DNA from: a virus
Virus record (IMG/VR): IMGVR_UViG_3300021962_000311
Location: 1-35,549 of that record
Length of the DNA: 35,549 nucleotides
Strand: one strand, 5' to 3'
Made by a program: the position numbers and the translations under genes. The notes beneath the pieces are model-generated. The model did no database searches. It was not told where the DNA came from and worked only from the letters and a program-made list of their open reading frames with translations. This document shows positions 5,901 to 20,968 of the stretch, one piece after another; positions within the stretch are counted from its first letter, which is position 1; every line of letters begins with the position of its first letter.

Positions 5901-5919
5901 TTAAAGAGGTTATTTGAGT

Positions 5920-6633
5920 ATGTCACTGCCTAAGATTAATTCTCCGTTATATGAATTAACTATTCCATCTACTGAGAAAAAGATTAAATATAGAGCATTT
6001 GTCGTTAAAGAAGAAAAGATTCTTCTTCTTGCTTTAGAATCACAAGAACAGCAAGAAATTACAGATGCTATTATTCAAATTATCAATAACTGTGTTCAGT
6101 CAAAGATTGATATTGATAGTTTATCCACATTTGATATTGAATATATTTTCTTAAATATTCGTGCAAAATCAGTTGGTGAAGAACTGGAGTTTTCAATCAC
6201 CTGTCCTGATGATGGTGAAACACAGGTAGAAGTAACGATTGACATCGATGCAATCAAAGTGCATAAAGATGATAAGCACGATAGTGTAATTGATTTGGGT
6301 AATGGATACTTCGTGAAAATGAAATATCCTACTATGAAATATATTGCTGATAAGAAAAATATTGAGACGAAGAGTGTTATTGATAGCACCTTCGATTATG
6401 CTGTAGATTGTATTGAACAGATTTATAATGAAGAAGAAGTATGGGAAGCAGCAAATTCCACCAGAAAGGAAATGGCAGAATTTGTTGAGAGTTTGAATTC
6501 TAAGCAATACCAGAAAATTCAAGATTTCTTCAATACAATGCCTAAGTTGAAGCATACAGTCAAAATTACCAATCCCAAAACTGGTGTCGAAAGTGAGGTG
6601 ACGATTGAGGGTCTGGCAAATTTTTTCGCATAG
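5920..6633 (+). CDS. gp26: gp26-like baseplate hub/tail assembly protein (zero-frame product)
   Basis: 237 residues from the ATG at 5920 (a TTG at 5914 would add two residues; AGAGG at 5905-5909 serves either). The N-terminal half, SLPKINSPLYELTIPS, KYRAFVVKEEKILLLALES and STFDIEYIFLNIRAKSVGE, is the signature of the T4 gp26 family (Pfam T4_baseplate). T4 gp26 belongs to the hub assembly pathway. The gene ends GLANFFA-stop at 6631, directly after two slippery heptamers. The -1 frame stays open to 6809 and would give a 296-residue product. Confidence 0.85.
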   Translation: MSLPKINSPLYELTIPSTEKKIKYRAFVVKEEKILLLALESQEQQEITDAIIQIINNCVQSKIDIDSLSTFDIEYIFLNIRAKSVGEELEFSITCPDDGETQVEVTIDIDAIKVHKDDKHDSVIDLGNGYFVKMKYPTMKYIADKKNIETKSVIDSTFDYAVDCIEQIYNEEEVWEAANSTRKEMAEFVESLNSKQYQKIQDFFNTMPKLKHTVKITNPKTGVESEVTIEGLANFFA

Positions 6634-6658
6634 CAGTTTTCCAGAATAATCTGGAGAA
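6618..6658 (+). promoter_or_regulatory. Programmed -1 frameshift site with downstream stem-loop
   Basis: Overlapping heptamers A AAT TTT (6618-6624) and T TTT TTC (6621-6627), both of X XXY YYZ form in the gp26 reading frame, precede the UAG (6631-6633). An 8-bp stem, TTTTCCAG (6637-6644) with CTGGAGAA (6651-6658), closes a six-base loop 9 nt after the second heptamer. Slipping back one base leads into a frame open to 6809. Confidence 0.65.
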
Positions 6659-6683
6659 CTATTATCGATTAAATTTTAATTTA

Positions 6684-6809
6684 ATGCAGCATCATAAATA
6701 CTCTTTGACAGAAATAGAAGAGATGATGCCTTGGGAACGTGATATTTACGTTCAATTGTTGGTGGAATACATTGAGAAAGAAAACGCAAGAAGAGCAGCA
6801 CAGCAGTAA
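6684..6809 (+). CDS. gp26 frameshift extension / small hub assembly ORF
   Basis: An ATG at 6684 gives 41 residues (MQHHKYSLTEIEEMMPW onward), helical and charged, with the stop overlapping the next start (TAATG). The same frame is open upstream through the gp26 stop, coding RIAVFQNNLENYYRLNFNL before the ATG. That looks like real protein and supports expression as a gp26 fusion rather than a separate gene. The ATG has no good RBS. By position (between gp26 and the tape-measure-like gene) it is the counterpart of the lambda T extension in G-T, or of T4 gp51. A late-promoter-like CATAAATA (6693-6700) lies within it. Confidence 0.65.
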   Translation: MQHHKYSLTEIEEMMPWERDIYVQLLVEYIEKENARRAAQQ

Positions 6810-9652
6810 TGGCAACACCACCAGCTAATCCAAATCCATCAGGAGGGACTAATCCAACTCCCACTTCAACTCCTGCTGCTAATAATTCAACTTCTAATCA
6901 ACAGAATCAACAGAATCAACAGAATCAACAGAATCAAACACAAAATACTCAGCAGCAAACACCAACACAAGATTTTACTCCAAATAACAATACTGGTCTT
7001 GAAGTCAGAGAAGTAAATCCTCCTTTAACACCAGATCAAGTAATTGGTGTTGTTGATACTCCAGTACCTACTCCTGTTTTACCTACATTAAAACTTGAAA
7101 ATGTAAAAATTCCTACGGTAAAAAATAAAACAATTCAAGGTCATCTTAAAGCCATTGAAGGTAAGATGATTGCGACTGAAAAGTTGATGAAAAACATTGT
7201 TAAACTTCAGCGCCTTCAGTATACAACAGAAAAGCAATTATTTGAAAGAAAGAGAGAATTATATCAAAATACTTTTGAGGAATATCTATTAGATAAAACG
7301 ATAGATTTTGGTAAAAAGAAAAAAGATTGTACTTGTATAAGTATTCCTGAAAATGTTCCTAAACAATCTTCACCTCCATTAATACCTCCATTAGGAAACC
7401 CTGCTACAGCACCTGCCACACAACCAGCAACTTCTCCTGCCACACAACCAGCAACTTCTCCTGTCAGGCAGCCAGGAACTGTGCTTCCTCCAATATTTCA
7501 ACCTGGCGGATCTCCCGCTCCAGCTCCTTTTCCCAATCCTGGTCCTGGTCCTGGTGGATTAACTTTACCCCCTCCAACACCATCTCCAGTACCTGATGTA
7601 AATATACCGAATTGGCCTGGTCCAAACGACAATACTCCTCTACCACAATTACCACCAACAACTACTGATAGAGGTAGAGATAAGGGTAGAGCACCTGGAC
7701 AAACACCTGGATTTGATTTAAAGGGTGCAATTGATGGATTAATAAATGCTGGTTTGATTACTGCCACTGCCGCTGCGATATTGTTCCCTGGTGATGGTCC
7801 GCTTCTTGATGCTGTTGGTCTTGCAGCATTAATTAGTAGAGGAGTAATGGCAAGAGCAACTATATCAGCAGTGGTAAGAAAAGTACTTACCAAAAAAGCT
7901 GCAGAACAACTTATGAAACAAGTTGATAAACTTGTAGGTGCTCCCAGACCTAGAACATCTTTTGCACCATCATATGCTTCTGGTGGTATAGTTCCTTATG
8001 CTTCTGGTGGTATTCCTGGAGGCGAAGATTTAGAACTCTATGATTCAAAATCACAAGATTATTTTAGAGGCCTCTCTAGTCAGGCTTTACAGGTAGCATC
8101 TGATATTCCTGTTGGACCTCATACACCACTACCTCATCCTGGATATGTGAGACCTCAAGGTGGTCATATTCCAAGACCTAATTTAAGAGGTATGCCAGGT
8201 CCGATGGGTAATCCTATGCCTTGGGGATGGCAACCAACTCTACTTGCAAAAGGTGGAATAGTAAAATCTTATGGCGGTGGTGGATGGTTACAGCAATTAG
8301 GTAAGTTTTTACCTGGCACTGGCACTGTAATGGCACCAAAGGGAGTATCATTGGGGTATCAAGATAAGTTTTTAGGGATTCCTATAGGAGCGAGACGTGA
8401 GATTCCTTTGAATAAAACTTATGCACCTGCTCAAGCGGCAAGGTATAATGCATCTCCAAGTGCCCCTAGCACTCTAACAACTTTTTCTAATGGACCTCTT
8501 CAGGGTAGACATGTAAGTATTCCTAAAACTACAGTATCTCCTGCTGCTACTAGTTCCACTTCACGAACTGAACCATTAACTAGTAGAACACAAGGACTTG
8601 CTAGTTCTTTATCTCAACAAAGTGAACAAAAGCAGGCTCAAATTAATGAACTTTTAGGTAAAAATGATAAAACTATGACATGGGGGCAAGCAAATCAAGA
8701 ATTAGGAAATAGATTAGGTTGGAGTACCCGAGGGGAACAAATGATGAAAGCTAAACAACAAGGGATGTTTGCTGATGGTGGAATTACGGGCGGTAGATTA
8801 GGATTTACTACAAGATTTGGTGGTCAAGTAAATAATATGGCAGGTATTACAGCAGGATTAGATTTTACTAGTGGAAAAACTAGAGCATCTGCTGATGCTA
8901 TGATTGGTGCTGGAAATACTATTGTAGGAACTTCACCAGAACGAGCTGTTGATGATTCTTTATATGCGGATCAATCTAACACTGGAGATTGGAAAGGAGT
9001 ACCATATGCACTTCCTGCATTTAAATCTGAAGTCAGGCAAGGATTGATGGGTGCTTTTGGTGCTGGTCTTACTTCTTCCTTCGGAGATTCTCCTGAAAAT
9101 GATGATGATCCCGAGAGTCCTGATCAAAGGAATCCTAGAAGAAAAACTCCTACTCCTGAAAGAGACCCTAAATCTACTAGAGCTATGGTCAGAGGAAAAC
9201 CACCAATAGTACGAGAAAAACCCCCAGAAAGAAAAAAACCAGAAGGAATAGTTCTAAAAAAAGATGGAAAAGAAAAACCAGATGATAGAACAATAAATCG
9301 AAATAGTATAGTTCCAATCACAAAGTTAGCAAAATCACCTAAAGAAGAATCAAGAGATGATGATGCCAATACTATTATAAAAAAATCTAAACAAGATTTT
9401 GAAAAATTTGGTGAAGATTTTAATGTATCACCTCCAGATGAATCTTCTTCAGGTATTAAAAATCTTGAATCTCAGCAGAATCAATTGCAACAAAGTTCAA
9501 GTGCTCCTACAGTAGACACGATGAGTACTCCTCCTGTAGTGCAATCACTTGGAAATAATACTTCTTCCCCTTCAATAGATGCTGAATTAGAACCACCTTC
9601 TAGTGCTTCAATGCCTCAGGAATTTATAGTTCCATCTAGCGGACCTTTATAA
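6809..9652 (+). CDS. Tape-measure-like tail/hub protein, 947 aa
   Basis: Visible parts in order: a Pro/Asn/Gln-rich start with four repeats of a 9-nt unit (QQN) at about residues 30-43; a coiled coil at about 108-165; a Pro-rich linker at about 185-290 with a perfect 24-nt tandem duplication; a hydrophobic Ala/Gly/Leu helix at about 308-345; then several A-x-GGI motifs (YASGGIVPYASGGIPGG near 388, LLAKGGIV near 480, FADGGITGG near 653), which are common in tape-measure proteins; and a charged disordered tail from about 750. It follows the gp26 frameshift gene, where phages place the tape measure. No T4 gp29-like sequence is recognisable. A tape-measure or hub-core role is inferred. Confidence 0.6.
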   Translation: MATPPANPNPSGGTNPTPTSTPAANNSTSNQQNQQNQQNQQNQTQNTQQQTPTQDFTPNNNTGLEVREVNPPLTPDQVIGVVDTPVPTPVLPTLKLENVKIPTVKNKTIQGHLKAIEGKMIATEKLMKNIVKLQRLQYTTEKQLFERKRELYQNTFEEYLLDKTIDFGKKKKDCTCISIPENVPKQSSPPLIPPLGNPATAPATQPATSPATQPATSPVRQPGTVLPPIFQPGGSPAPAPFPNPGPGPGGLTLPPPTPSPVPDVNIPNWPGPNDNTPLPQLPPTTTDRGRDKGRAPGQTPGFDLKGAIDGLINAGLITATAAAILFPGDGPLLDAVGLAALISRGVMARATISAVVRKVLTKKAAEQLMKQVDKLVGAPRPRTSFAPSYASGGIVPYASGGIPGGEDLELYDSKSQDYFRGLSSQALQVASDIPVGPHTPLPHPGYVRPQGGHIPRPNLRGMPGPMGNPMPWGWQPTLLAKGGIVKSYGGGGWLQQLGKFLPGTGTVMAPKGVSLGYQDKFLGIPIGARREIPLNKTYAPAQAARYNASPSAPSTLTTFSNGPLQGRHVSIPKTTVSPAATSSTSRTEPLTSRTQGLASSLSQQSEQKQAQINELLGKNDKTMTWGQANQELGNRLGWSTRGEQMMKAKQQGMFADGGITGGRLGFTTRFGGQVNNMAGITAGLDFTSGKTRASADAMIGAGNTIVGTSPERAVDDSLYADQSNTGDWKGVPYALPAFKSEVRQGLMGAFGAGLTSSFGDSPENDDDPESPDQRNPRRKTPTPERDPKSTRAMVRGKPPIVREKPPERKKPEGIVLKKDGKEKPDDRTINRNSIVPITKLAKSPKEESRDDDANTIIKKSKQDFEKFGEDFNVSPPDESSSGIKNLESQQNQLQQSSSAPTVDTMSTPPVVQSLGNNTSSPSIDAELEPPSSASMPQEFIVPSSGPL

Positions 9653-9657
9653 TGTAA

Positions 9658-11739
9658 ATGGAAAATTTAGTTCAACCAAAAACTAAAATGGTGAATGCTC
9701 CTAAACAGGAGTCAAAGTATTTTGTCGCTGAAAATAATATTGTTCCTTTACAGGTAGCAACACCACAATTAATTTTAGATCTTGAAGAAACGAAAGATAT
9801 TCAAATTCTTGATGAAAATAAGGTACAAACAATAATTAAAGAAAACAAGGGGAAATATATTCTTGATAAATTTTTCAATAAAGTTTCTGATTATATTGAC
9901 AGTGTTAATCAATTTATAAAAAGATTGACACAACTGCAGTTAAAAAATATAGAACAAAAAAAAATAATTTATGAAATTGAGAAGACAGATCAATTTTTTA
10001 AATCTAATAAGTCCAAAAAATTAATAAAAAAAATAAAAGAGGAAGAGCAAGAGCAAGAATCTAAAAATATAGACATCTCTACTGATAAAGATGCTGCTCT
10101 TCTTATTGCAGCTGCTCTTGGAATGGGAGTTACATCAGCACTTACTTCTATGCTTCCTGGGGGAACACAAGTTTACAGTGATGTAGTTAAAGAAGGAGAA
10201 TTTGGAGTTCAGCAAGGTCAGAATGTATCAATACCTCCTGCTTGGATACCTTTTCCTAAAGGAACTTCTGGATTAGTTTATACTTCTGGTTATGGGATGA
10301 GATTAAGTCCCGTCAGTGGTAGATATAAGATGCACAGTGGTATTGATATTGCTGGTCCAGTTGGTTCTCCCATCATTACTCCTATTTCTGGTATGGTGTC
10401 ATTTGCTGGTGATGAAGGTGATGGTTATGGTTATAAAGTTGTAATTACTTCTGGACAACTTAAAATGTTGTTTGGTCATATGTATCAACCACCTCCTGTT
10501 GCTACTGGGCAGCAGATTCAAGCGGGAACTAAAATTGGTGGAATAGGAAGCACTGGGCAATCTACAGGACCTCACTTGCATTGGAATGTTTATGTTAATG
10601 GAAGTACGGTAAATCCTGTTGATTGGACTAGATCAAATCGTCCACAAGTCGGCACATCTAGTTTTCAACAAAGTGGAGGTTATGGAAGATATGCTGACCT
10701 TTCACAACAAAGACCTTTGGATCAAGAATCGGAGGGTGGTATTAATATTAACAGACGCATTATGGTTGGTGAGGCAGGAGTAGAATTTACAATTCCCATC
10801 AGTCAAATGCCATTGTTCATAAAAGCAATGATGGAAGAGAAAGTTAAAACTTTAATTCCAAACTATGAAGGAACTACAGAAGCAAATGTTGGATTTGAAA
10901 CATCATCAGGACCTGCTCAAACTAAATTTGCTTCAGGTGCGATAGTTAAATATACAGGTAATCCTAATTACCGACTTGCTGCTAAAAAATTAAAATCATT
11001 ATTCCCAGAAGCAAAGGATTATCATATTGCTGCTGCTATGGGTAATTTTGAAACAGAATCAACTGGTATGTATCCAAACAGATATCAAGGTGATTATTCG
11101 ACACCTCCTACTTGGAAAAAACCAGGCAGCGGTCCTGGTAGAGGAATTGCACAATGGGAAGTTGACCACGCTGGGAATAATTTTAATGGTAGATGGTCTC
11201 AGGGTATTAAGAAGTTTGGACCTTCTTTATTTACAAGTTTACCAAAACAATTAGATTTTGTTAAATGGGAACTTGATAATAATACAAGATATTTACCTTG
11301 GGGAAATGCAACTAAAACAGAATGGTTAGGTTCAAAGGACCTTATAAGTGCTACTAAGAATTTCTTGGAAGGTTATGAAGCACCTAGTATTCCTCATATG
11401 GATGCTAGGATATTAAGAGCAAAAAGTTTTCTTGCTAATATGAGAAAGAAAGAAAATTTATTAGGAATTCCTGAGCAACCCAAACCCAAACCAAAAGAAG
11501 AAAATATTTTTGATAAAATTAAAAATTTCTTTTTGCCACCCAAGAATAAAGTTGCATTTAGTCCTACTCCAACAACTACTCCAAGTTTAACAGATATACC
11601 TGACAATGTGCAGCAAGAAATTGCATACGATACTCAAAGTAAGTTTGAGATGTTCGCTGAACCAGAAAATAGTATTCTTATTATGAAAGTTCCAGTAATC
11701 ATAGATAAAACTACTGCAGGCATTAAGGTTGTAGGATAA
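9658..11739 (+). CDS. Tail hub protein with M23 peptidase and tail-lysozyme domains
   Basis: 693 residues. A coiled coil at about 55-140 and a short hydrophobic segment (AALLIAAALGMGVTSAL) lead into an M23 peptidase domain: SGYGMRLSPVSG, H226-SGI-D230 and the HLHW motif at 306-309. M23 enzymes cut peptidoglycan cross-bridges. A GEAGVEFTIPISQMPLFIKAM stretch similar to tape-measure C-termini follows. A second enzymatic domain at about 435-585 resembles phage tail lysozymes (AAMGNFETES with Glu465, GRGIAQWE). It is probably carried in the tail and opens the host wall on injection. The upstream gene ends 5 nt before; the next start overlaps its stop (TAATG). Confidence 0.75.
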   Translation: MENLVQPKTKMVNAPKQESKYFVAENNIVPLQVATPQLILDLEETKDIQILDENKVQTIIKENKGKYILDKFFNKVSDYIDSVNQFIKRLTQLQLKNIEQKKIIYEIEKTDQFFKSNKSKKLIKKIKEEEQEQESKNIDISTDKDAALLIAAALGMGVTSALTSMLPGGTQVYSDVVKEGEFGVQQGQNVSIPPAWIPFPKGTSGLVYTSGYGMRLSPVSGRYKMHSGIDIAGPVGSPIITPISGMVSFAGDEGDGYGYKVVITSGQLKMLFGHMYQPPPVATGQQIQAGTKIGGIGSTGQSTGPHLHWNVYVNGSTVNPVDWTRSNRPQVGTSSFQQSGGYGRYADLSQQRPLDQESEGGININRRIMVGEAGVEFTIPISQMPLFIKAMMEEKVKTLIPNYEGTTEANVGFETSSGPAQTKFASGAIVKYTGNPNYRLAAKKLKSLFPEAKDYHIAAAMGNFETESTGMYPNRYQGDYSTPPTWKKPGSGPGRGIAQWEVDHAGNNFNGRWSQGIKKFGPSLFTSLPKQLDFVKWELDNNTRYLPWGNATKTEWLGSKDLISATKNFLEGYEAPSIPHMDARILRAKSFLANMRKKENLLGIPEQPKPKPKEENIFDKIKNFFLPPKNKVAFSPTPTTTPSLTDIPDNVQQEIAYDTQSKFEMFAEPENSILIMKVPVIIDKTTAGIKVVG

Positions 11740-13625
11740 TGATTAAATCTCGCACACAGATAATTCCATTTAAAAAACCACCAAAAGTCAAGGCTCTTTC
11801 GCCTATAATTCCTCGCAGAAAAAAATCTGAAGAAACTCGCAGCAAGAAGTCATTATTCAGTACTATTATTCCATTCAATCCAGAGATGTTGAGGTTGGAA
11901 GAAGTAGAGCAGAAACACTATATTGTTCCAACTCCAAAAATAGAATATATTATTGATTCTGATGATAAAAATGATTGGAATTCTCTACTTGAAAGGTTTA
12001 ATTCATTGATGAGGACTTTATTGAAGGTTCTTTCAAATATGAGAAAGCAGCAGCATCGTAATGTCATAAGTTTAAAATTAACTGAACGAGAAATTGAACG
12101 CAGGCATACTTTACTTCACGAAAAATTACTTGAAAAAACTCAGGATGCTGAAGAGGTACAGGCAAAAACTCAGTTAACTGATAAAGAAAAAATTCAAAAA
12201 TTAAAAGATTATTTGTCTGCTCTTGGATATGCAGCTGCTGGAGCACTTATGGTTGACCCAAATGCGCCAGTATTGACAGGTAATTTAGGTCAGAAATCAG
12301 TGCAACTTGCACAAAGATTAATGCAAGATTTTGGACTTACTGATTTCCAAGCTGCTGCTATTGTTGGTGTTATGAGAAGAGAGGGTTTTAGTAGTGGTTA
12401 TCCTGATGTTCGTCAGGGAAATGTGAGGGGAGCACCAACTTATGGAGGTACATCTCAAGAAGGATATGGATGGATTCAGTGGACTAATGTGCCAGGAGGT
12501 TCAGACCCAAATGGAAGATTGAATAGAGCCTTGATTTATCTTGGTATGGGACCACCACCAAAACAGACAAGACCCTGGACCGATGAGGACAATTATAAAG
12601 TATTAACTTGGGAATGGAGAACTCATTATACCAGTACAATTCCATCGGTAAAATCTACTAGCACATTAGAACAAGCTGTTTATGAATTTGTTGGTAATTA
12701 TACAGCTGGAAGTAAAGCAAATATTGCAACATATGAGGCAAATGAAGGTGGTGGATTTTTACAAAGAAGAATAGACGAAGCTAATAGTGTTTTAAAGACT
12801 CTTAGGCAAAAAGCAAGTGGAGGTATTGTAATACCAGAGTTGTTTGATAACAATCTTATTGAATATGATACTTTTAGGAAGACTACTTTACTTTCTAACT
12901 TCATCGTTGATAGACCAACGATATTAAATATGAAAGACATTGGGGAACCTTTAGTTATTATTCCATTAGGTAGACCTATTGGTAGAATGATTTTGCAGAC
13001 AATTTTTCGTGATGCTTTTAGAAGATTGGAAAATAAGTTTGAAATGAAAAAAATTCAGAGTCAACCTGTGGAGTTTTTGAAAACACCAGCACCAACTCCA
13101 ATGAAAAGTGAAATTGGAGGTCCTTCACCAGCAACACCAGGAAGTAGTGAAATTGGAGGTCCTTCACCAGCAACACCTGTAACTCCTTCAGTAAATACTT
13201 CTACTCAAAGTTTATCATCGATGAGTATCGAACAACTTAAAGGAATGTTAGACCCCACAATAACTGGAGCAGCAAATCCAAGTGTATTCAATGCAGCTAA
13301 ATCTGCGAGAGAAGCAGCAATGATGCAAGGATTATCACCAGAAGAAATTGAACGACAGGTTCTTATGGCAACAATTGCTGCTAGAAGAATGCAACCCTCG
13401 CCAGTTACATTGGTGAAATCAATTCCAGGTAAAATAATCAATACAGTTGTTCCTCTTCCAGTAGAATCTCCAGAAGCAAAAGTTCCTGATATTTCTCCAT
13501 CACCTCAGGCGCAGGAAGAAAAAAGTCGTATAGATACTAATATATCGCAAAAAACAGAGAACATCATAACAGGAGGTTCTAAGAAGGTCATTATGGTAAA
13601 CGAAACTTATATCTACACTGATTAG
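11739..13625 (+). CDS. Tail hub protein with tail-lysozyme domain, 628 aa
   Basis: The layout parallels the two preceding genes: a basic N-terminal tail, coiled coils at about 70-165, a hydrophobic stretch (SALGYAAAGALMV), then a tail-lysozyme-like domain at about 185-345 with AAAIVGVMRREGFSSG (Glu215 the likely acid) and EGYGWIQWTN. KASGGIVIPELFD near 360 recalls tape-measure motifs. The C-terminal part is Pro/Ser/Thr-rich, with a 32-nt direct repeat (13107-13138 and 13146-13177) encoding SEIGGPSPATP twice. It is likely a second wall-degrading hub component. The stop is 2 nt before the gp27-like gene. Confidence 0.7.
   Translation: MIKSRTQIIPFKKPPKVKALSPIIPRRKKSEETRSKKSLFSTIIPFNPEMLRLEEVEQKHYIVPTPKIEYIIDSDDKNDWNSLLERFNSLMRTLLKVLSNMRKQQHRNVISLKLTEREIERRHTLLHEKLLEKTQDAEEVQAKTQLTDKEKIQKLKDYLSALGYAAAGALMVDPNAPVLTGNLGQKSVQLAQRLMQDFGLTDFQAAAIVGVMRREGFSSGYPDVRQGNVRGAPTYGGTSQEGYGWIQWTNVPGGSDPNGRLNRALIYLGMGPPPKQTRPWTDEDNYKVLTWEWRTHYTSTIPSVKSTSTLEQAVYEFVGNYTAGSKANIATYEANEGGGFLQRRIDEANSVLKTLRQKASGGIVIPELFDNNLIEYDTFRKTTLLSNFIVDRPTILNMKDIGEPLVIIPLGRPIGRMILQTIFRDAFRRLENKFEMKKIQSQPVEFLKTPAPTPMKSEIGGPSPATPGSSEIGGPSPATPVTPSVNTSTQSLSSMSIEQLKGMLDPTITGAANPSVFNAAKSAREAAMMQGLSPEEIERQVLMATIAARRMQPSPVTLVKSIPGKIINTVVPLPVESPEAKVPDISPSPQAQEEKSRIDTNISQKTENIITGGSKKVIMVNETYIYTD
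13107..13177 (+). repeat. 32-nt direct repeat in the tail-lysozyme gene
   Basis: Two identical 32-nt copies (13107-13138 and 13146-13177), offset by 39 nt (13 codons), keep the reading frame. Identity at silent positions points to a recent duplication. Confidence 0.9.
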
Positions 13626-13627
13626 AA

Positions 13628-15079
13628 ATGTCAGATACAGTCTATAACACTAAGATTACTGCAGTAGTTTATCCACCACCTACAGGAGATGTTTATGGTA
13701 TGGGGTCTCCTACCAGCGGTGGTATTGATATTAGTGCATTAGTTTCTGAATTTACATATTACGAATCTATATTTTCTCCATTTTGTTATGCAGAGATGAC
13801 TATTATGGACTCTACTGGTTCACTTGAGGGTGGTGATGATAGTCCTTTAGGTGAATGTGGATTGAGAAAATTTAGTTGTGTTTCAATTACACTTCCAGAT
13901 CCGATGTCATTTAATAAAGAAAATGCCGAAAGAAGTGTGGAGGCGTATCAATGGCAAGGAACAAATTGTTTTTATGTAAATAAAATTTCAAATCAATTAA
14001 ACAAAGGTAAGAAGAAAATTTATACACTTAAATTAGTACCTAAAGATTCATTTACATCAATTGCAAAACAATTTATTCAACATTGGGGAAGTAATGGAAC
14101 TGTTTCTAGTGTTGAATATAATAGAGTAATAGAAGATATTTTAAATGATCAAATGCAGGTTCAGAAAACATTAAATGTTACTGAAGACAGAACAGAACCG
14201 ACAGCTGCTTATTCTATGCATAATGTTTTCCCACTTTCTGCTATCAAAGATATTTTAAAAAAATCAGTTTCATTGAATCAATCTGGTTCTGTTTCTGGTG
14301 CTAGCACAGGAAGTTCTAGTGGAGGAACATCCAACACAAGTAAGGAATCCACTGAAAATATGAATAAAAAAGTTGGATATGCATTTTTTGAAACGTATGA
14401 TAATTTCACATTTCGTTCCTTAGAAAGTTTTGTGAATCGTAATCATACTGCAGGTGCCGCCCCCGACCCAGATGAATATCATAGTTTTTCTATTTTCCCT
14501 GTAAATGATAGAAATGTAACAGCTCAACAATCTTCTCAGGCAATTATAAGTTATAAACATTTTGATGATGAAAACACTACTGATGTTTTAACTGAAGTAC
14601 GAAAGAAAAAAAGAGGCACTCCTAAAACAGTTCGTTATGATGTAACTACGAATACTTTTAAAACAATTGAACAAACTGGAACTGAAACAGATCCTTGTAA
14701 TATTACACAAATTGATGGTAGTTTTCAACCAATTGAACGAGATGTATATACTGAATTTCAAGTAGCATATGTAAAAGTGTGTAGAGAAAGTGATTTGAGT
14801 GGTATGCCAGTCAATCCTAAAAAATATGAACCTTATTACGAAGGAGGAGTTGAAGAAATAAAAGAAAGAACTTCTACTATTCGTGTTCCAGGAAATCTTA
14901 CACTAAAAGCTGGTGATAGAATTTTTATTAGTATTCCAAAAACTCAAGCAGAAAATGGACAACCATCTGAAGTATCCGATAAATATTCAGGACTCTTTAG
15001 TATTGTTTCTGTAGCACATCGTTTGGAAAACATCAACAAACTTTATACCGATTTAGATATTTGCAAATTTAGAGATTAA
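13628..15079 (+). CDS. gp27-like baseplate hub protein
   Basis: 483 residues. The N-terminal half, with FTYYESIFSPFCYAEMTIMDSTGSL and CFYVNKISNQ...KKKIYTLKLVPKDSF, looks like a tube-type domain. The later GYAFFETYDNFTFRSLESFV is a motif seen in gp27-type and other contractile-tail hub proteins. The C-terminal half has a second barrel-like region (IRVPGNLTLKAGDRIFISIP). T4 gp27 forms the trimeric ring that holds gp5; here the next two genes encode an OB-fold protein and a needle, which fits. A Ser/Gly/Thr linker lies at about 219-240. The length (T4 gp27: 391) is greater than in T4. The gene is TAATG-coupled to the next. Confidence 0.7.
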   Translation: MSDTVYNTKITAVVYPPPTGDVYGMGSPTSGGIDISALVSEFTYYESIFSPFCYAEMTIMDSTGSLEGGDDSPLGECGLRKFSCVSITLPDPMSFNKENAERSVEAYQWQGTNCFYVNKISNQLNKGKKKIYTLKLVPKDSFTSIAKQFIQHWGSNGTVSSVEYNRVIEDILNDQMQVQKTLNVTEDRTEPTAAYSMHNVFPLSAIKDILKKSVSLNQSGSVSGASTGSSSGGTSNTSKESTENMNKKVGYAFFETYDNFTFRSLESFVNRNHTAGAAPDPDEYHSFSIFPVNDRNVTAQQSSQAIISYKHFDDENTTDVLTEVRKKKRGTPKTVRYDVTTNTFKTIEQTGTETDPCNITQIDGSFQPIERDVYTEFQVAYVKVCRESDLSGMPVNPKKYEPYYEGGVEEIKERTSTIRVPGNLTLKAGDRIFISIPKTQAENGQPSEVSDKYSGLFSIVSVAHRLENINKLYTDLDICKFRD

Positions 15080-18000
15080 TGGAAAATATCAATCTTAATC
15101 AAAGACTAACTGAAATAGTTGAAAAAATTGCAAAGGGCAAAGAATATCTTGCTCCAGGTATTGTAGTCGCAGTTGATTCTGAAAGCAAAGCAAGAGTCAA
15201 AGTAAGAATACCCCATATGCATGGGTATTGTGATGCAGAAGGAAATAATTGCGATGATCAGGTAATAGAAAATGATAGTTTACCATATATTAAAGTTCCA
15301 CTTTTAAAGAGTGCTCCTCCAGGAGTTCAAAATGCTTATGAGAAATATTTCAAGGGTGATCACGTTCGTGTAAGAATTGAAGGTGATGATCCATCTAACT
15401 GGGAAGTTGTTACCAAAATAAAACCTCTTCCTGGTATGGGAGGAAAGGAAAAAGAAAATATTCAAAACTCTTTGGTGACGGATAAACTTGTACAAGAGTG
15501 TGAAGGTTCTTTTGTTACTGATTCTCCTGAAGGAAGAGATTGCTGTACAGTAATCACTGAATCTGCAAAAATTAAACAGAACGGTGAGAATGTTTCAGGT
15601 GCTGATCGATGCGGTTCTGGCGGTAAACTAAAAGATGGAATCACAGCAGAGATTGCTGATTTTATGAAAATTGTTCAGAGCACCAATGGAAAAATTGGTA
15701 CTCAATTTGTTAGTAATATCACTGGAGAATTATTCTCCATGGCTTCCTATATTCAAAAATACACTGCATCTATTTTAGGTGTTCTTCGCAGTGCTATTAA
15801 CTGGATTAAAGCAATCATCACTAAGTATGCTAGACAAGCAATTGATGCTTTAGTAAAAGCAATTATGGTTCCTATTAAAGGAGTTACCAAAGTTGTTGAT
15901 GATACGATTGAACAAATTTTGCAAATGATTGCTTGTTCTTTTGGCAATCTTGAAGCATTACTGCAAAATTTATTAGAAGGTCTTTTAAATTCTCTTCTTG
16001 ATAGTGCATTAAATGCAATTTGGGGTTGTTTAGATCCATTGATTGATGGTATTATTAATACTATTTTAAGTGAAATATCATCTCTTTTGAATAGCATTTT
16101 AAGTGCTATTTCAAGCATTGCTGGTCTTATTGCACCATTTGGTGATATGCTTGGCGAAGCATTGAACGCTATTTTAGATTACTTGGGAATTTCTTGTGGC
16201 GGAGCAGGCGATTGTACTGCTACTGGTCAAGCAACAATGATTTCCAAGTTTAACTCCCCTGGTGAATATGGAATGACTTTTGGTATTTCCAAAGCATTGA
16301 ACACAGGATTATCAGCAATTGATGGAATTACATCTGGAATTGTTACTGGTGTTAATGGTATTGACGCTGCTGTAGCAGCTGGAAATTCTTTTGCTGCTGG
16401 TGTATCTTTAGGTACTTCTGATTATCCTGGTATTGATACATCAAATGCTGCACTTGTTCGTGCATTTTCTGTTGCAGAGGGAGCTCTTGGACCATCTGTA
16501 TCTAGTGTTTTTGATTTTTGTGATGGTGGCGCTGGTTCTACAACAGCAGTTATTTTAGGTACAGATTTAGTATCAAATTATATGGTTACTGCATCTGCAG
16601 GTGGTGTTTGCCCAACAGGAAGTGGAATAACATTTAATGTTACTAGAGATAATACAGAAGCTGCTGGTGCTATTAACGTTGTTGCATATAAATCATCAGT
16701 AGATACTATTAGATTAGATGGTTCTAATAGAGATATTGATTTTACTAATTTCTTAACCAACGCTGATTTTATTGATGGTGATCCTTCTAATCCATTCGAC
16801 ATTATTAATAGTAGTGTTGCTTTTACTACAGCTAGTGGTAGTCATATTGGTACAAATGTTTTTTATAGTAAGAGATTGAATTTTGGAGTTGGAGAAAATG
16901 CTAAATCAGTTTATATTCCTACTAGAACTAGTTCTCCTACAATAGTTGGATATACCACTCCAGGTATTTACTTGGATTTAACTTCTACTACTGGAACTAC
17001 TACAGTTACATTTTCTCTTTCTGATGGTGGCGGTAGTACTAATAGTGTTAACATTCCAGGACCAACAGCGACGGGAGGAACCATTCCTCCTCTAACAGAT
17101 ACTTCTGGTGCGTCTGTCGCTGTTAATTTGATTGGTGGAAGAGTTTATGGTCCAATAACAGGCGCTGGGGGAGGAACTTTATACTTGGGTAATGAAGTTG
17201 TAGCAGGTATATCTGGCAGTGGTTCCTTATCTAATCAACATATAGTCATTGCTGAAGGAACTGATGACTGGGATGACTTTGTTGTTAGAACTTCTCACGG
17301 TGTTTTTGTCAATGCAACTTCAACAACGTCATTTGCATCTATTCCCACCGAAGTAACTTTCAGAGTAAGTTTGTTTAGAAACTCTGGTGATATTAGTGGT
17401 TATGATCATTCAGATGGAAGAAATTGTAGTCACTTCCCAAATACTTCTTCTGCTCTGAATACTGCTGTTGGTAGAATTACTTTTGCATCTACTGCAGTTC
17501 CTGCCGCAGCTCCTTCTGGTGCAGCTCCCGCCCCCGCTCCTTCTGGTGTACCTCCTGCTGGTTCTACAAGTATATCTTATTTCTCCACAACTTATTCAGT
17601 AACTGCTGGAAATCCAGTTCTTATGAATATAACTAGGATGCCAGACACAGCATCTGCATCTACTATTAGATATACAATTAGTGGAATTACTGCTATAAAT
17701 GGCGTTCACTTTGATGGTGGCACATTAACAGGAACTATTAATTTTGATCCTGCATCTGCTCCTCCTACTGGTGGTTTAAGAGTATTATCTATTCCTACTT
17801 TTGCTACTCCTCCAGCAGCTGCTCTTGTTCCCGCCGCCGCACCAGCTCCAGTTAATGTTCTTGGTATTGGTACTGAGGGTAGTAACATTATTACTGGCAT
17901 AACTCCTGCTATGATTGCCTCTGTTTCAGCACTTCCTTCTGGTGGTATTGGCGCTACAATTACTGGTCTTGTTGGAGGTGGTGGTATATTTGCAGTTCCA

Positions 18001-19779
18001 GTAGGAACCACAATCACTGCCGTAAATGCAGCAACTAATCAAATTACAATATCAAATAATATTTCTTCTACTGCTGCGGTTCCTGCTCCTGTTCCTATCG
18101 TCGGAGCAGTAAGTTTTAATGTTGTTGCAGCAGCTCCAGCTGTTCCAGTAGTTCCAGGAGCATTTCCTCCTATTCCTTCTTCTGGTGTAACTTTCAACGT
18201 TAACATTAGAGATGAAGTAGTACCAGCATTGCATACTAGTACATTAGGAACTGCTCCTGGTGCAAATTATGTGATGACAATTTTCCCATCAGGAGTTGTT
18301 GTTGGGGGACCAGCAATTGGTCCTGCAACTTGTGCTGCTGCTATTAATTTTACAGCAACACCACCAACTTGTATGGTTCAACCAGATACTAGTCCACTGA
18401 GTCTTGGTGTTATTGCAACTACTACTGTTGCTGGATATACATTATCTTATCAATGGCAAAGAACTTATACACCATCAAATAGTGGTTCTTGGACAAATAT
18501 TTCTGATGGTGTATTCAATACCACAGTTCCAGTTGCGACACCAACACCAATTATTCTCGCTTCTGGTGTTACTCCATCTGGAATTCCATTTGTTATTTCT
18601 GGATGGACTACTACGATTATTAATACTCCTGCTTCTTGTGGATTCTCTGGTGCAACTTCACCTACTTTAACTGTTTCGCCAATTAGTCATTTGATTAATG
18701 ATCAAGAGTATTATCGCTGTGCAGTTCTTGCAACTCCTACATTACCATCATTAATCACTCCATTCTTACCCATAGTTTATTCTCCAAATACTTATGTTGG
18801 AGTCAATGCATCTGGAGTATTCAGCACTACTGTAAATTGTTCCCCAGTTCCACCATCAGGCGGTGTTATCGTCTATAGTGGTGCTGCTCCAGTTGCATCA
18901 CCAGTTCCTCTTGTTGCTTCTGGTTTCTTCTGTGGAGTAGCACCAATTCCAGGATTCCCTGCTTCACCTCCTCCAATTGTAATTCCTTCAGGAGTTGCTG
19001 GTCCTATTGTATTGCCAGTAGTTGCTGCTCCAGTTCCTCCAGCAGGTCCAGCTGTTGTTCCTTCTGGTATTGTTCCGAGCCCAGGAGTTCCTGCTGGACC
19101 CGCTGGACCTGTAGCTCCTGGTGGCGTAGTTGCTCCTCCTCCCCCACCAGCACCTCCTGTGGGCGGCGGCCCTGCTCCAGCACTTCCCTTTGTCGGTGGT
19201 CCTATTGGTTCTGGATCTCCTGGTAGTGGTGCTTATGTTACAACACCAGTTGTAGGTCCTGGTGGTGGTGTTGTTAGCGTTCCTATTCCACCAGGATTAC
19301 CTGCCTTCGCTGCTCCTCCTATGGTTGCAATTACAGGTGGAGGTTTTGGTGCTGTTGCAAAAACTGTTCTGAATGAAAGAGGATATGTTGACAGAATTAT
19401 CGTAACATCTGCTGGATTTGGTTATTCTCCTAACAAAGGAGAGGAGCTTTGTGGTATTTTAGAAAACATTGAAATTACAGCGGTAGGTGGATATTACGAA
19501 TCATCACCAACAGTTTATGTAGATGGAGATTCTGATGTTGCTTTTGCTTCAATTGATGAACAAGGCAGAGTAGTTGATATTAGGATTACAAATCCAAAGA
19601 ATAAAGTTTATGATTACATTCCAACTATTGAACTTAGAGGTGGTGGAGGTCTTGGTGCATCTGCAATTGCCGTAATTCGTTACGTTAATTGTGCTGATGT
19701 TGCTGATGAGTACTTAAATGTAGTAGATAAATACAATACCAGAAGAATTGGTACTGTACGCATTGTAGATTGCCCATAA
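15079..19779 (+). CDS. Giant gp5/VgrG-type OB-fold hub protein with Calx-beta- and Ig-like segments
   Basis: 1,566 residues. About 20-117 is an OB-type domain (APGIVVAVDS, ARVKVRIPHMHG, VRVRIEGDDPSNWEVV) like the N-terminus of T4 gp5. About 190-375 is a long amphipathic helical region rich in Ile/Leu. Beta-rich, Gly/Ser/Thr-rich sequence follows; about 834-900 plus 1035-1060 resemble a Calx-beta domain (NGVHFDGGTLTGTINF, GVTFNVNIRDE) split by a Pro/Ala-rich insert. About 1104-1217 is Ig-like (SYQWQR, WTNISDG, YYRCAV). About 1254-1397 is Pro/Ala/Val-rich. The C-terminus has GxGY/GGGG repeats typical of solenoid phage structural proteins. No lysozyme domain is seen, unlike T4 gp5. Domain calls beyond the OB fold are tentative. 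Confidence 0.7.
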   Translation: MENINLNQRLTEIVEKIAKGKEYLAPGIVVAVDSESKARVKVRIPHMHGYCDAEGNNCDDQVIENDSLPYIKVPLLKSAPPGVQNAYEKYFKGDHVRVRIEGDDPSNWEVVTKIKPLPGMGGKEKENIQNSLVTDKLVQECEGSFVTDSPEGRDCCTVITESAKIKQNGENVSGADRCGSGGKLKDGITAEIADFMKIVQSTNGKIGTQFVSNITGELFSMASYIQKYTASILGVLRSAINWIKAIITKYARQAIDALVKAIMVPIKGVTKVVDDTIEQILQMIACSFGNLEALLQNLLEGLLNSLLDSALNAIWGCLDPLIDGIINTILSEISSLLNSILSAISSIAGLIAPFGDMLGEALNAILDYLGISCGGAGDCTATGQATMISKFNSPGEYGMTFGISKALNTGLSAIDGITSGIVTGVNGIDAAVAAGNSFAAGVSLGTSDYPGIDTSNAALVRAFSVAEGALGPSVSSVFDFCDGGAGSTTAVILGTDLVSNYMVTASAGGVCPTGSGITFNVTRDNTEAAGAINVVAYKSSVDTIRLDGSNRDIDFTNFLTNADFIDGDPSNPFDIINSSVAFTTASGSHIGTNVFYSKRLNFGVGENAKSVYIPTRTSSPTIVGYTTPGIYLDLTSTTGTTTVTFSLSDGGGSTNSVNIPGPTATGGTIPPLTDTSGASVAVNLIGGRVYGPITGAGGGTLYLGNEVVAGISGSGSLSNQHIVIAEGTDDWDDFVVRTSHGVFVNATSTTSFASIPTEVTFRVSLFRNSGDISGYDHSDGRNCSHFPNTSSALNTAVGRITFASTAVPAAAPSGAAPAPAPSGVPPAGSTSISYFSTTYSVTAGNPVLMNITRMPDTASASTIRYTISGITAINGVHFDGGTLTGTINFDPASAPPTGGLRVLSIPTFATPPAAALVPAAAPAPVNVLGIGTEGSNIITGITPAMIASVSALPSGGIGATITGLVGGGGIFAVPVGTTITAVNAATNQITISNNISSTAAVPAPVPIVGAVSFNVVAAAPAVPVVPGAFPPIPSSGVTFNVNIRDEVVPALHTSTLGTAPGANYVMTIFPSGVVVGGPAIGPATCAAAINFTATPPTCMVQPDTSPLSLGVIATTTVAGYTLSYQWQRTYTPSNSGSWTNISDGVFNTTVPVATPTPIILASGVTPSGIPFVISGWTTTIINTPASCGFSGATSPTLTVSPISHLINDQEYYRCAVLATPTLPSLITPFLPIVYSPNTYVGVNASGVFSTTVNCSPVPPSGGVIVYSGAAPVASPVPLVASGFFCGVAPIPGFPASPPPIVIPSGVAGPIVLPVVAAPVPPAGPAVVPSGIVPSPGVPAGPAGPVAPGGVVAPPPPPAPPVGGGPAPALPFVGGPIGSGSPGSGAYVTTPVVGPGGGVVSVPIPPGLPAFAAPPMVAITGGGFGAVAKTVLNERGYVDRIIVTSAGFGYSPNKGEELCGILENIEITAVGGYYESSPTVYVDGDSDVAFASIDEQGRVVDIRITNPKNKVYDYIPTIELRGGGGLGASAIAVIRYVNCADVADEYLNVVDKYNTRRIGTVRIVDCP

Positions 19780-19783
19780 AATT

Positions 19784-20968
19784 ATGACACTTTCTAACGA
19801 ACAATCTCTTCAGCAGGGTAGTGTAACAGTTACCCAAGATAGAGATGAACTTCAAGTTGAGATTACTGGCGGGTCTTTTAAAATTTCTGAGTGTATTAAT
19901 CCTAATGATAGAAGCTATGAGATGAGACATTTCAAAGCTTCTTTTTTGAGATGGCAGCACAATGGATCTATTTTATTAGTCGCTCATAGTGTAAATCTTG
20001 CTCCGAACGAAGGATATTTGGATATTAAGTCTACAGGATATACTCAAATGGTCAGTGACCATAATATTATGATTTCTGCCAAAGGTCATAAAATGACTGG
20101 CGGTGGTGATAAAGCAACTGACCAAAATAAAAGTTTAGAACTTTATGGTAAAGGTGATGTGCATATTCAATCTGATGGTAAAGGTGGTGTTTATATAAGT
20201 GCTGCTGAAAACATTGAATTCAAAGCAGGTGGTAGCATTATTCTAAATGCTGCTGATCAAGTTAGTATAAATACAGGTTCAAAAGATCCTGTGGCAGTTG
20301 GTGAATCTCAAGGAATTGGTAGTGGTAAGTTTGTAGTTTCTACAGCAAAATATGAACTTGCTTGCACAAGTTATACTGAAACTGTTACAGGAAGAAAACA
20401 AGTAACAAATACAGGTGAACTAACACAAGAACAAAAACTTTCGACTACTCAACCTAGTCTCCCAAGTAAGCATATTACTCATACGGAAACAGTTGGTTCT
20501 TTAGTTCATAAAATTGACCACGATTATGTTCTTGAAATTGGTGGCAAAATGTTACTTAAAGTTAATAATGACCCATCAAAAATTGGTGGTGTGTTAGGTG
20601 GTGGGGGTTCTTATGGAACTCAGCAAGAAGCATTAGTGCAGGAGATTGGTGGTGGTAGATTAACAACCATTAAAAAACCAATGAAACCTCCTTATGGCGA
20701 TGATGTCGTGAAAATCACGGAAGGTTATGCAGTTTATGATGTCACGAAAGGAAGAAATAACCTTGCTTTCCGAGTAAACAGTCAGAGTCTTGGAGATATT
20801 ATTCTTGAGGTAACGGCAAAAGGGCAAATTGGTCTGGGAAATAATACAGATCCAATTACAATTCAATCTAAAGCAGGTGATATTAGAATTGATGCACAGG
20901 CAAAGATGGTTGATATTAAAGGAACTAAAGAAGTTAGACTTTTTGGAGCAAAAATTAATTTAAACTGA
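19784..20968 (+). CDS. Needle-like spike protein (gp5 C-terminal / VgrG-like)
   Basis: 394 residues rich in short beta repeats. About 115-165 reads as alternating strands (GDVHIQSDGKGGVYISA, IEFKAGGSIILNA, QVSINTGS) like the triple-stranded needle of T4 gp5 and VgrG proteins. The end repeats the theme (IQSKAGDIRIDAQAKMVDIKGTKEVRLFGAKINLN). It lies 4 nt after the OB-fold gene, so the T4 gp5 functions appear split: OB collar in one protein, needle here, and lysozyme in the tape-measure-like proteins. A weak late-promoter match GATAAATA (19726-19733) lies 50 nt upstream. Confidence 0.7.
   Translation: MTLSNEQSLQQGSVTVTQDRDELQVEITGGSFKISECINPNDRSYEMRHFKASFLRWQHNGSILLVAHSVNLAPNEGYLDIKSTGYTQMVSDHNIMISAKGHKMTGGGDKATDQNKSLELYGKGDVHIQSDGKGGVYISAAENIEFKAGGSIILNAADQVSINTGSKDPVAVGESQGIGSGKFVVSTAKYELACTSYTETVTGRKQVTNTGELTQEQKLSTTQPSLPSKHITHTETVGSLVHKIDHDYVLEIGGKMLLKVNNDPSKIGGVLGGGGSYGTQQEALVQEIGGGRLTTIKKPMKPPYGDDVVKITEGYAVYDVTKGRNNLAFRVNSQSLGDIILEVTAKGQIGLGNNTDPITIQSKAGDIRIDAQAKMVDIKGTKEVRLFGAKINLN

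Follow-up and report, generated by a model that had tools for sequence, protein, structure and literature searches.

The viral DNA fragment analysed here (IMG/VR virus record IMGVR_UViG_3300021962_000311; 35,549 bases, the whole of which we call the window) contains three consecutive large genes between a pair of tail-assembly chaperone genes and the genes for the baseplate hub. We consider it probable that they constitute a tape-measure locus where three genes have taken the place of the one tape-measure gene found in T4-like phages, the first product (P1) being mostly ruler and the other two (P2 and P3) bearing enzymes. The gene order is gp26, a gp51-like open reading frame (ORF), P1, P2, P3, a gp27-like gene and a gp5-like gene, all on the + strand, and we refer to the interval between gp26/gp51 and gp27/gp5 as the slot, a position common to the window and the named Kyanoviridae examined. 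The three consecutive ORFs described in a first-pass annotation of the sequence are confirmed, at 6809–9652 (P1, 947 amino acids (aa), the putative main tape measure), 9658–11739 (P2, 693 aa) and 11739–13625 (P3, 628 aa). Their placing at a tape-measure location is supported as well: tape-measure genes generally adjoin a tail-assembly chaperone pair, and here gp26 and the gp51-like ORF, with a −1 slippery site, lie directly upstream of P1.

From the gene order together with database matches, the window groups with the T4-like cyanophages, of the Kyanoviridae type. Its CobS-type ATPase is 77% identical to that of Synechococcus phage DSL-LC02, and its gp26 is at most 54% identical to that of Prochlorococcus phage P-SSM5 among the matches listed.

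Domains and kinship of P1, P2 and P3

Profiles of the N-terminal regions were built from 10 clade members and compared by hhalign with column-shuffle controls (20 and 100 shuffles). The N-termini of P2 and P3 are homologous (E 4.5e-7; score 49.0, the best of 100 shuffles reaching 21.6) over approximately 60 columns, corresponding to 9766–9951 in P2 and 11880–12068 in P3, and the homology ends in the first half of a helix predicted for P3. P1 has no detectable relation to either protein. The earlier proposal that all three share one plan, with related N-terminal halves, therefore stands in part: judged from sequence, the shared plan is homology for the N-termini of P2 and P3, and for P1 it is one of architecture. 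The motifs said to occur in each protein are similarly divided, SGGI being present in P1 and P3 and absent from P2, and GEAG being found only in P2.

P2 carries a Peptidase_M23 domain (10327–10617; 9e-24) and a Phage_lysozyme2 domain (11011–11439; 2e-14), and P3 carries a Phage_lysozyme2 domain (12303–12800; 1.7e-11), all found with Pfam. The two matches to Phage_lysozyme2 (PF18013), at 54.4 bits for P2 and 44.9 bits for P3, are both above the gathering cutoff of 28.2. These searches bear out the assignment of an M23 peptidase and a tail lysozyme to P2 and of a tail lysozyme to P3, and the domains detected are those expected of the two kinds of wall-cutting activity that had been predicted. 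The M23 residues H226, D230, H306 and H308 are invariant in 10/10 aligned P2 sequences; they correspond to HxxxD and HxH, the zinc-ligand motifs of M23 peptidases. P2 also has an Ala/Leu/Gly hydrophobic segment (10099–10155; mean hydropathy 1.84 over 19 residues), and alignment of the P2 sequences gives the MVGEAGVEFTIPISQM motif (10762–10809), with MVGEA..EF..P.SQM invariant in 10/10. The GEAG segment of one relative (L014) gave tblastn matches only at E 4–7, those to its motif part (query 1–26) comprising seven records, five of tape-measure genes and two of the S-H38 slot protein.

The AlphaFold2 model of P3 is weak (mean predicted local distance difference test score (pLDDT) 49), with a long helix at aa 77–141 (11967–12161; pLDDT 51–65) that is a putative coiled coil, an Ala/Gly helix at aa 148–169 (12180–12245) and lysozyme blocks at pLDDT 38–85. 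The best match of the lysozyme model is phi29 gp13, with a Foldseek probability of 1.00 but an E of 0.014. Sequence comparison places the IGEPLVIIPLGRPIG motif of P3 at 12942–12983, and the P3 counterpart of the GE motif reads IGEPLVIIP, not GEAG. An LDPTxTGAxNP mini-domain (13221–13388; sequence comparison and model) has helices that are the best-predicted part of P3 (pLDDT blocks 84–87), and the slot proteins of S-H38, S-ShM2 and S-CREM2 also have it, in the form LDPTxTGAxNPxV..AA..AR.

P1, which ranges from 711 to 947 aa among the relatives, has a conserved N-terminal block that includes a predicted long helix at aa 107–162 (7127–7294), a putative coiled coil that is near-invariant in 10 relatives and reaches a block pLDDT of 88. 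A second helical stretch at 592–650 has pLDDT 75–83 in its core, and an Ala/Leu hydrophobic segment at about aa 304–343 (7718–7837; hydropathy and model) varies in position among the relatives. The P1 model is weak overall (mean pLDDT 41) and its alignments are shallow. As regards the extended helix of a ruler, the N-terminal helices of P1 and P3 are only 56 and 65 residues long, and elsewhere the predictions are of low confidence from shallow alignments.

A conserved slippery site between gp26 and gp51

The gp26 gene (5914–6633) is identified by tblastn, with matches in 984 phage records, most listed rows of which are annotated as baseplate hub or hub assembly chaperone, and by its family profile, which aligns with T4 gp26 at an hhalign E of 8.3e-15. 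A heptamer, T_TTT_TTC, at 6621–6627 is in register with gp26, and the gp51-like extension (6628–6809) lies in the −1 frame, which is already open upstream of the gp26 stop and runs on to a TAA at 6807–6809 that overlaps the P1 ATG. The first ordinary start in this frame is an ATG at 6684, and in the window the stretch upstream of it lacks ATG, GTG and TTG.

We read 87 gp26 ends to the stop, representing 67 distinct sequences, and the slippery heptamer is found in 67/67, as TTTTTTC in 55 and TTTTTTT in 12. The first Phe codon of the heptamer is always TTT, and the codon in front of it has T as its third base in every case, whichever amino acid it encodes (N, D, S or A); the corresponding background frequencies in the same genes are 0.74 for TTT and 0.79 for T at the third base. 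The naive chance of this conservation is 3e-16, a figure that is overstated since the sequences are related. One exception is S-SCSM1, for which the same scan put gp51 in the +1 frame.

Over the stretch from the gp26 stop to the Met of MQHHKYSL, pairwise codon comparison of 17 distinct clade sequences gives 739 synonymous and 160 nonsynonymous differences in the −1 frame, compared with 91/747 and 66/802 in the other two frames. Purifying selection thus acts on the gp51 frame even upstream of its first ordinary start codon, and the part of gp51 before the Met at 6684, which has no start codon in the window, is probably made by a −1 frameshift. It is likely that marine T4-like phages use a chaperone frameshift of the G/GT type, a short form and a frameshifted long form being predicted here from a sequence signature seen in all of the distinct gp26 ends. 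Part of T4 gp51 resembles gp26 (E 1.6e-5 with the gp26 profile; E 9.1e-5 with T4 gp26), and as a whole (L086, 3980–4729) it looks like a gp26-like domain joined to a short gp51 part, i.e. a ready-made long form.

According to the PRFect paper, some T4-like phages have separate short and fused chaperone genes and no frameshifting, and the phiCbK paper describes chaperone frameshifting upstream of the tape measure as common. Sullivan et al. (PMC3037559) report that cyanophage gp51 resembles a fifth of T4 gp51, and the conserved slippery site would explain this short appearance. That gp26 and gp51 act as chaperones was already known. For this branch the conservation of the slippery site is apparently new, no report of it having appeared in the literature listings surveyed, which leave aside the study of tail-assembly chaperones in T4-like phages by Vladimirov et al. 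2022.

Slot genes and enzyme modules in relatives

Relatives were gathered by a viral-contig scan with gp26, which gave 80 loci; the same scan with gp27 gave no relative, with P1 two loci and with T4 gp29 only five near-identical loci. Among the 81 records (80 loci plus the window), 30 span gp26 to gp27, the latter recognised by a hidden Markov model, and the raw counts of ORFs of at least 300 aa between the two genes are three in 11 records, two in 11 and one in 8 (the single-slot proteins being of 689–1001 aa). By ORF lengths, L025/L027, L029/L030 and L034/L068 are near-duplicates, and by eye the slots of L076 (three ORFs) and of L057, L064, L066 and L067 (two) seem to contain other tail genes; these five were kept in the raw counts and not in the statement for the clade. 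That statement is that a three-gene slot is present in 9/9 slot-spanning loci with gp26 73–78% identical (L005, L008, L012, L014, L015, L017, L019, L020 and L022, the third gene of L022 being split, 461+127 aa). Two large slot proteins are found in S-PM2, S-ShM2, S-H38, S-CREM2, S-N03, S-H34, S-B68, ACG-2014f, P-SSM5 and S-SCSM1. S-CRM01 has one, as does Melnitz-3 (742 aa, with a 109-aa ORF alongside), and the slot was not found in the first 50 kb of DSL-LC02.

Kinship between neighbouring slot proteins extends to other phages. With significance defined as an hhalign E <1e-5 and a score above every shuffle, 7/11 same-phage or same-clade comparisons of N-terminal or selected regions are significant: P2–P3, cluster C, S-ShM2 combined with S-H38, S-PM2, ACG-2014f, L034 and S-SCSM1, although L034 and S-SCSM1 are mutually related and the seven pairs are not all independent. 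P1–P2, P1–P3, P-SSM5 and the L025/L029/L039 group are not significant. In S-PM2 the first 200 residues of p209 have no match to p210, and the match is that of an internal segment, 381–620, chosen by eye. In L070, which is more distantly related, a slot protein has a match among tape-measure PHROGs (1.4e-18).

The enzyme modules vary. M23 is present in all six P2 proteins scanned (of 10), and the second domain is Phage_lysozyme2 in the window and L012 and Phage_lysozyme in L015 and L019 (below cutoff in L022); Pfam found no second enzyme domain in the P2 of L008. Six of the 10 P3 proteins were also scanned, with Phage_lysozyme2 in the window, L005 and L017 and no Pfam lysozyme in L012, L015 and L022, which have another domain between the same flanks; such a replacement of the tail lysozyme between conserved flanks is seen in L012, L014, L015 and L022. 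A SleB-type hydrolase was considered for the replacement domain and is unsupported, Pfam giving no match, PHROG giving 0.098 for L022 only, and hhalign scoring 13.1 and 20.0 against shuffle maxima of 17.2 and 19.5. Slot proteins of other relatives carry GH19, GH24, C39, M15, VanY, glucosaminidase or M23. The N-terminus of S-PM2 p209 (L002, 4090–7593) matches NAD:arginine ADP-ribosyltransferases (PF01129, 1.3e-5), and the protein also has a tail lysozyme.

Virion presence and tail length

By published proteomes, slot proteins are virion-borne in two relatives. S-CREM2 ORF208 and ORF209, which are labelled endolysin, are represented in the virion by 73 and 71 unique peptides, and S-SCSM1 ORF213 and ORF214 are in the virion proteome, although its authors regarded structural roles as unlikely.

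The slot proteins are of 933+722 aa in S-N03 (tail 138 nm), 936+735 aa in S-H34 (129 nm), 950+1131 aa in S-SCSM1 (173 nm) and 1565+1456 aa in S-CREM2, the one long-tailed phage in the comparison (reported 418 nm). Set beside S-N03 and S-H34, S-CREM2 is suggestive of a link between slot-protein length and tail length, but one phage does not amount to a correlation. To account for the difference of ~284 nm, the extra 632 or 734 residues of a single S-CREM2 slot protein would need to span 0.45 or 0.39 nm per residue, and the extra residues of both proteins together 0.21 nm per residue. A fully extended chain spans ~0.36 nm per residue. Because the single-protein figures exceed this, the comparison suggests that both S-CREM2 slot proteins contribute to tail length, or that the value of 418 nm is in error. 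Part of the extra length of the S-CREM2 slot proteins consists of long expansions, S/T/N-rich or made of 39-base repeats (L088, 6839–7121 and 12001–13437), with 29 copies of the repeat motif in the second protein and none in its S-N03 counterpart.

Comparison with known tail systems

T4 has the same kind of hub gene cluster, with gp29, gp26/gp51 and gp27/gp5, and its gp26 is homologous to that of the window; in T4 gp29, as in the slot proteins, disordered regions and helices occur together with a hydrophobic stretch. However, the window has three proteins instead of one, and in T4 the genes for gp26 and gp51 do not adjoin in this way but stand apart, one on each strand. As had been claimed, gp29 is not recognisable here: P1, P2 and P3 have no match to PF25671 (T4 gp29) at E≤1, and profile searches found no homologue in any of six records at E≤10, whereas T4 gp29 itself scores 1388.7 bits. 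The companion claim for the lysozyme of gp5 survives in part. A gp5 homologue is recognisable (15079–19779; phrog_1922, 2.1e-57), next to a gp27-like hub protein (13628–15079; phrog_350, 2.3e-34), but this hub/spike protein has no Pfam lysozyme, and neither do the gp5-like proteins of S-PM2, S-CREM2, ACG-2014f and S-SCSM1. T4 has its lysozyme in gp5, whereas here the enzymes are on the slot proteins, and it appears that the spike has given up wall cutting to them. A hydrophobic helical stretch at aa 184–434 of the gp5-like protein matches tape-measure PHROGs (4.7e-8 and weaker); it lies at about the position of the lysozyme in T4 gp5. The next gene (19784–20968) encodes a spike-like protein of 394 aa with a weak DUF2345 match.

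The two-gene slots of Kyanoviridae (S-PM2 p209/p210, S-ShM2 013/014, S-SCSM1 213/214 and S-CREM2 208/209) share with the window their position, N-terminal paralogy (shown for S-ShM2 in combination with S-H38 and for S-PM2 on the internal segment), hydrolase modules and GG-rich motifs. They differ in having two genes, not three, and in their modules (GH19, GH24, C39, M15, VanY and glucosaminidase). The tail knob enzyme gp13 of phi29 consists of a lysozyme and an M23 half; P2 has the same two activities by domain content, and its residues 469–594 align weakly with gp13 36–157 (E 0.0013), but the domain order in P2 is reversed and the domains are embedded in tape-measure-like proteins. Phage lambda makes its G/T chaperone by frameshifting, and its chaperone, −1 frameshift site and ruler gene stand in the order G, T, H, as in the window; a GG..GEFVF segment of lambda gpH resembles that of an S-SCSM1 slot protein. 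Unlike in lambda, the chaperone family of the window is that of T4 gp26, and three genes follow.

Interpretation

Our preferred explanation is that P1, directly after the gp26/gp51 pair, is most likely the main ruler chain, and that P2 and P3 would have arisen from one ancestral N-terminal module by duplication, P2 bringing an M23 endopeptidase and a tail lysozyme and P3 a tail lysozyme. Acting as chaperones, gp26 and the frameshifted gp26–gp51 product would assist in loading the three proteins into the tail. In phage A-1(L), by the published description, most of the tape measure forms a six-fold helical bundle, its three C-terminal ends contacting the spike, and the lysozyme, endoglucanase and peptidase domains are carried by the hub and not by the tape measure. 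By analogy with A-1(L), P1, P2 and P3 may lie in the tube lumen with their C-termini at the gp27/gp5 hub, and at contraction they would exit through the tube, the enzymes opening the wall locally.

In its favour we count the slot position, the frameshift signature of the chaperones, the P2–P3 homology and the 7/11 related pairs, the virion occurrence of slot proteins in S-CREM2 and S-SCSM1, the PHROG match of L070, the invariant M23 residues, the gp5-like protein without a Pfam lysozyme and the greater length of both S-CREM2 slot proteins. Several observations weigh against this proposal. The N-termini of P1 and P2 (hhalign 23.9 against a shuffle maximum of 23.0) and of P1 and P3 (24.9 against 26.2) are not significantly related; the GE segments of P2 and P3, after the enzymes, and their C-terminal tails have no detectable homology; and sub-segments of P1, P2 and P3 searched singly against PHROGs gave no tape-measure match. 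P1 has no family match in Pfam, PHROG or phage-collection searches, tblastn included, and is mostly predicted to be disordered (789/947 residues at pLDDT <50), unlike a helical ruler. Its coil aligns with gp29 185–211 (E 0.0014; 29.5 against a shuffle maximum of 18.3), but as one of 31 comparisons this is a lead only and not a firm relation. The number of slot genes does not follow tail length, as S-CRM01, with a tail of 140–170 nm, has a single slot protein (864 aa).

In other phages a tape-measure gene is followed by genes for tail-associated murein hydrolases, and it could be that only P1 is a tape measure, P2 and P3 being separate tail lysins at the hub or tube end. P1 lacks enzymes, adjoins the chaperones and is not homologous to the enzyme-bearing P2 and P3, and the location of the A-1(L) hydrolase domains on the hub, in the description cited above, fits such a division. 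We think it rather unlikely, nonetheless, as P2 and P3 have N-terminal helical regions with short hydrophobic segments and both S-CREM2 slot proteins are expanded; moreover, in two-gene relatives the N-terminal module occurs in both slot proteins, usually along with an enzyme, which blurs the division into ruler and lysin. Less probable still is that P1 is a disordered structural or scaffold-like protein and that P2, P3 or another gene product measures the tail: its predicted disorder, lack of a family match and variable length (711–947 aa) would suit such a role, set against its position directly after the chaperones and its near-invariant N-terminal helix. That P2, P3 and their counterparts are endolysins for host lysis, as annotations of several relatives' records (endolysin, lysozyme or chitinase) and PHROG lysis classes would have it, is very improbable, given that the genes lie inside a tail operon, that the proteins have long helices and disordered parts, and that slot proteins were detected in S-CREM2 and S-SCSM1 virions.

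Taking the three-gene tape-measure locus as the preferred explanation, a broader model, to which we would give somewhat less than an even chance, is that of a hetero-oligomeric tape measure, in which two or three paralogous coiled-coil chains are bundled in one tube, each with an exchangeable hydrolase, so that the ruler is also a multi-enzyme drill; under this model the number of chain types (one, two or three) would be an evolving trait across T4-like marine phages. If this is true, the tape measure that had been missing in T4-like cyanophages, an abundant group, would be found among large proteins filed as hypothetical, endolysin or chitinase, and tape measures need not be homo-oligomers. 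Tail-length control would then be testable in culture, as S-CREM2, S-N03, S-H34 and S-SCSM1 are isolates.

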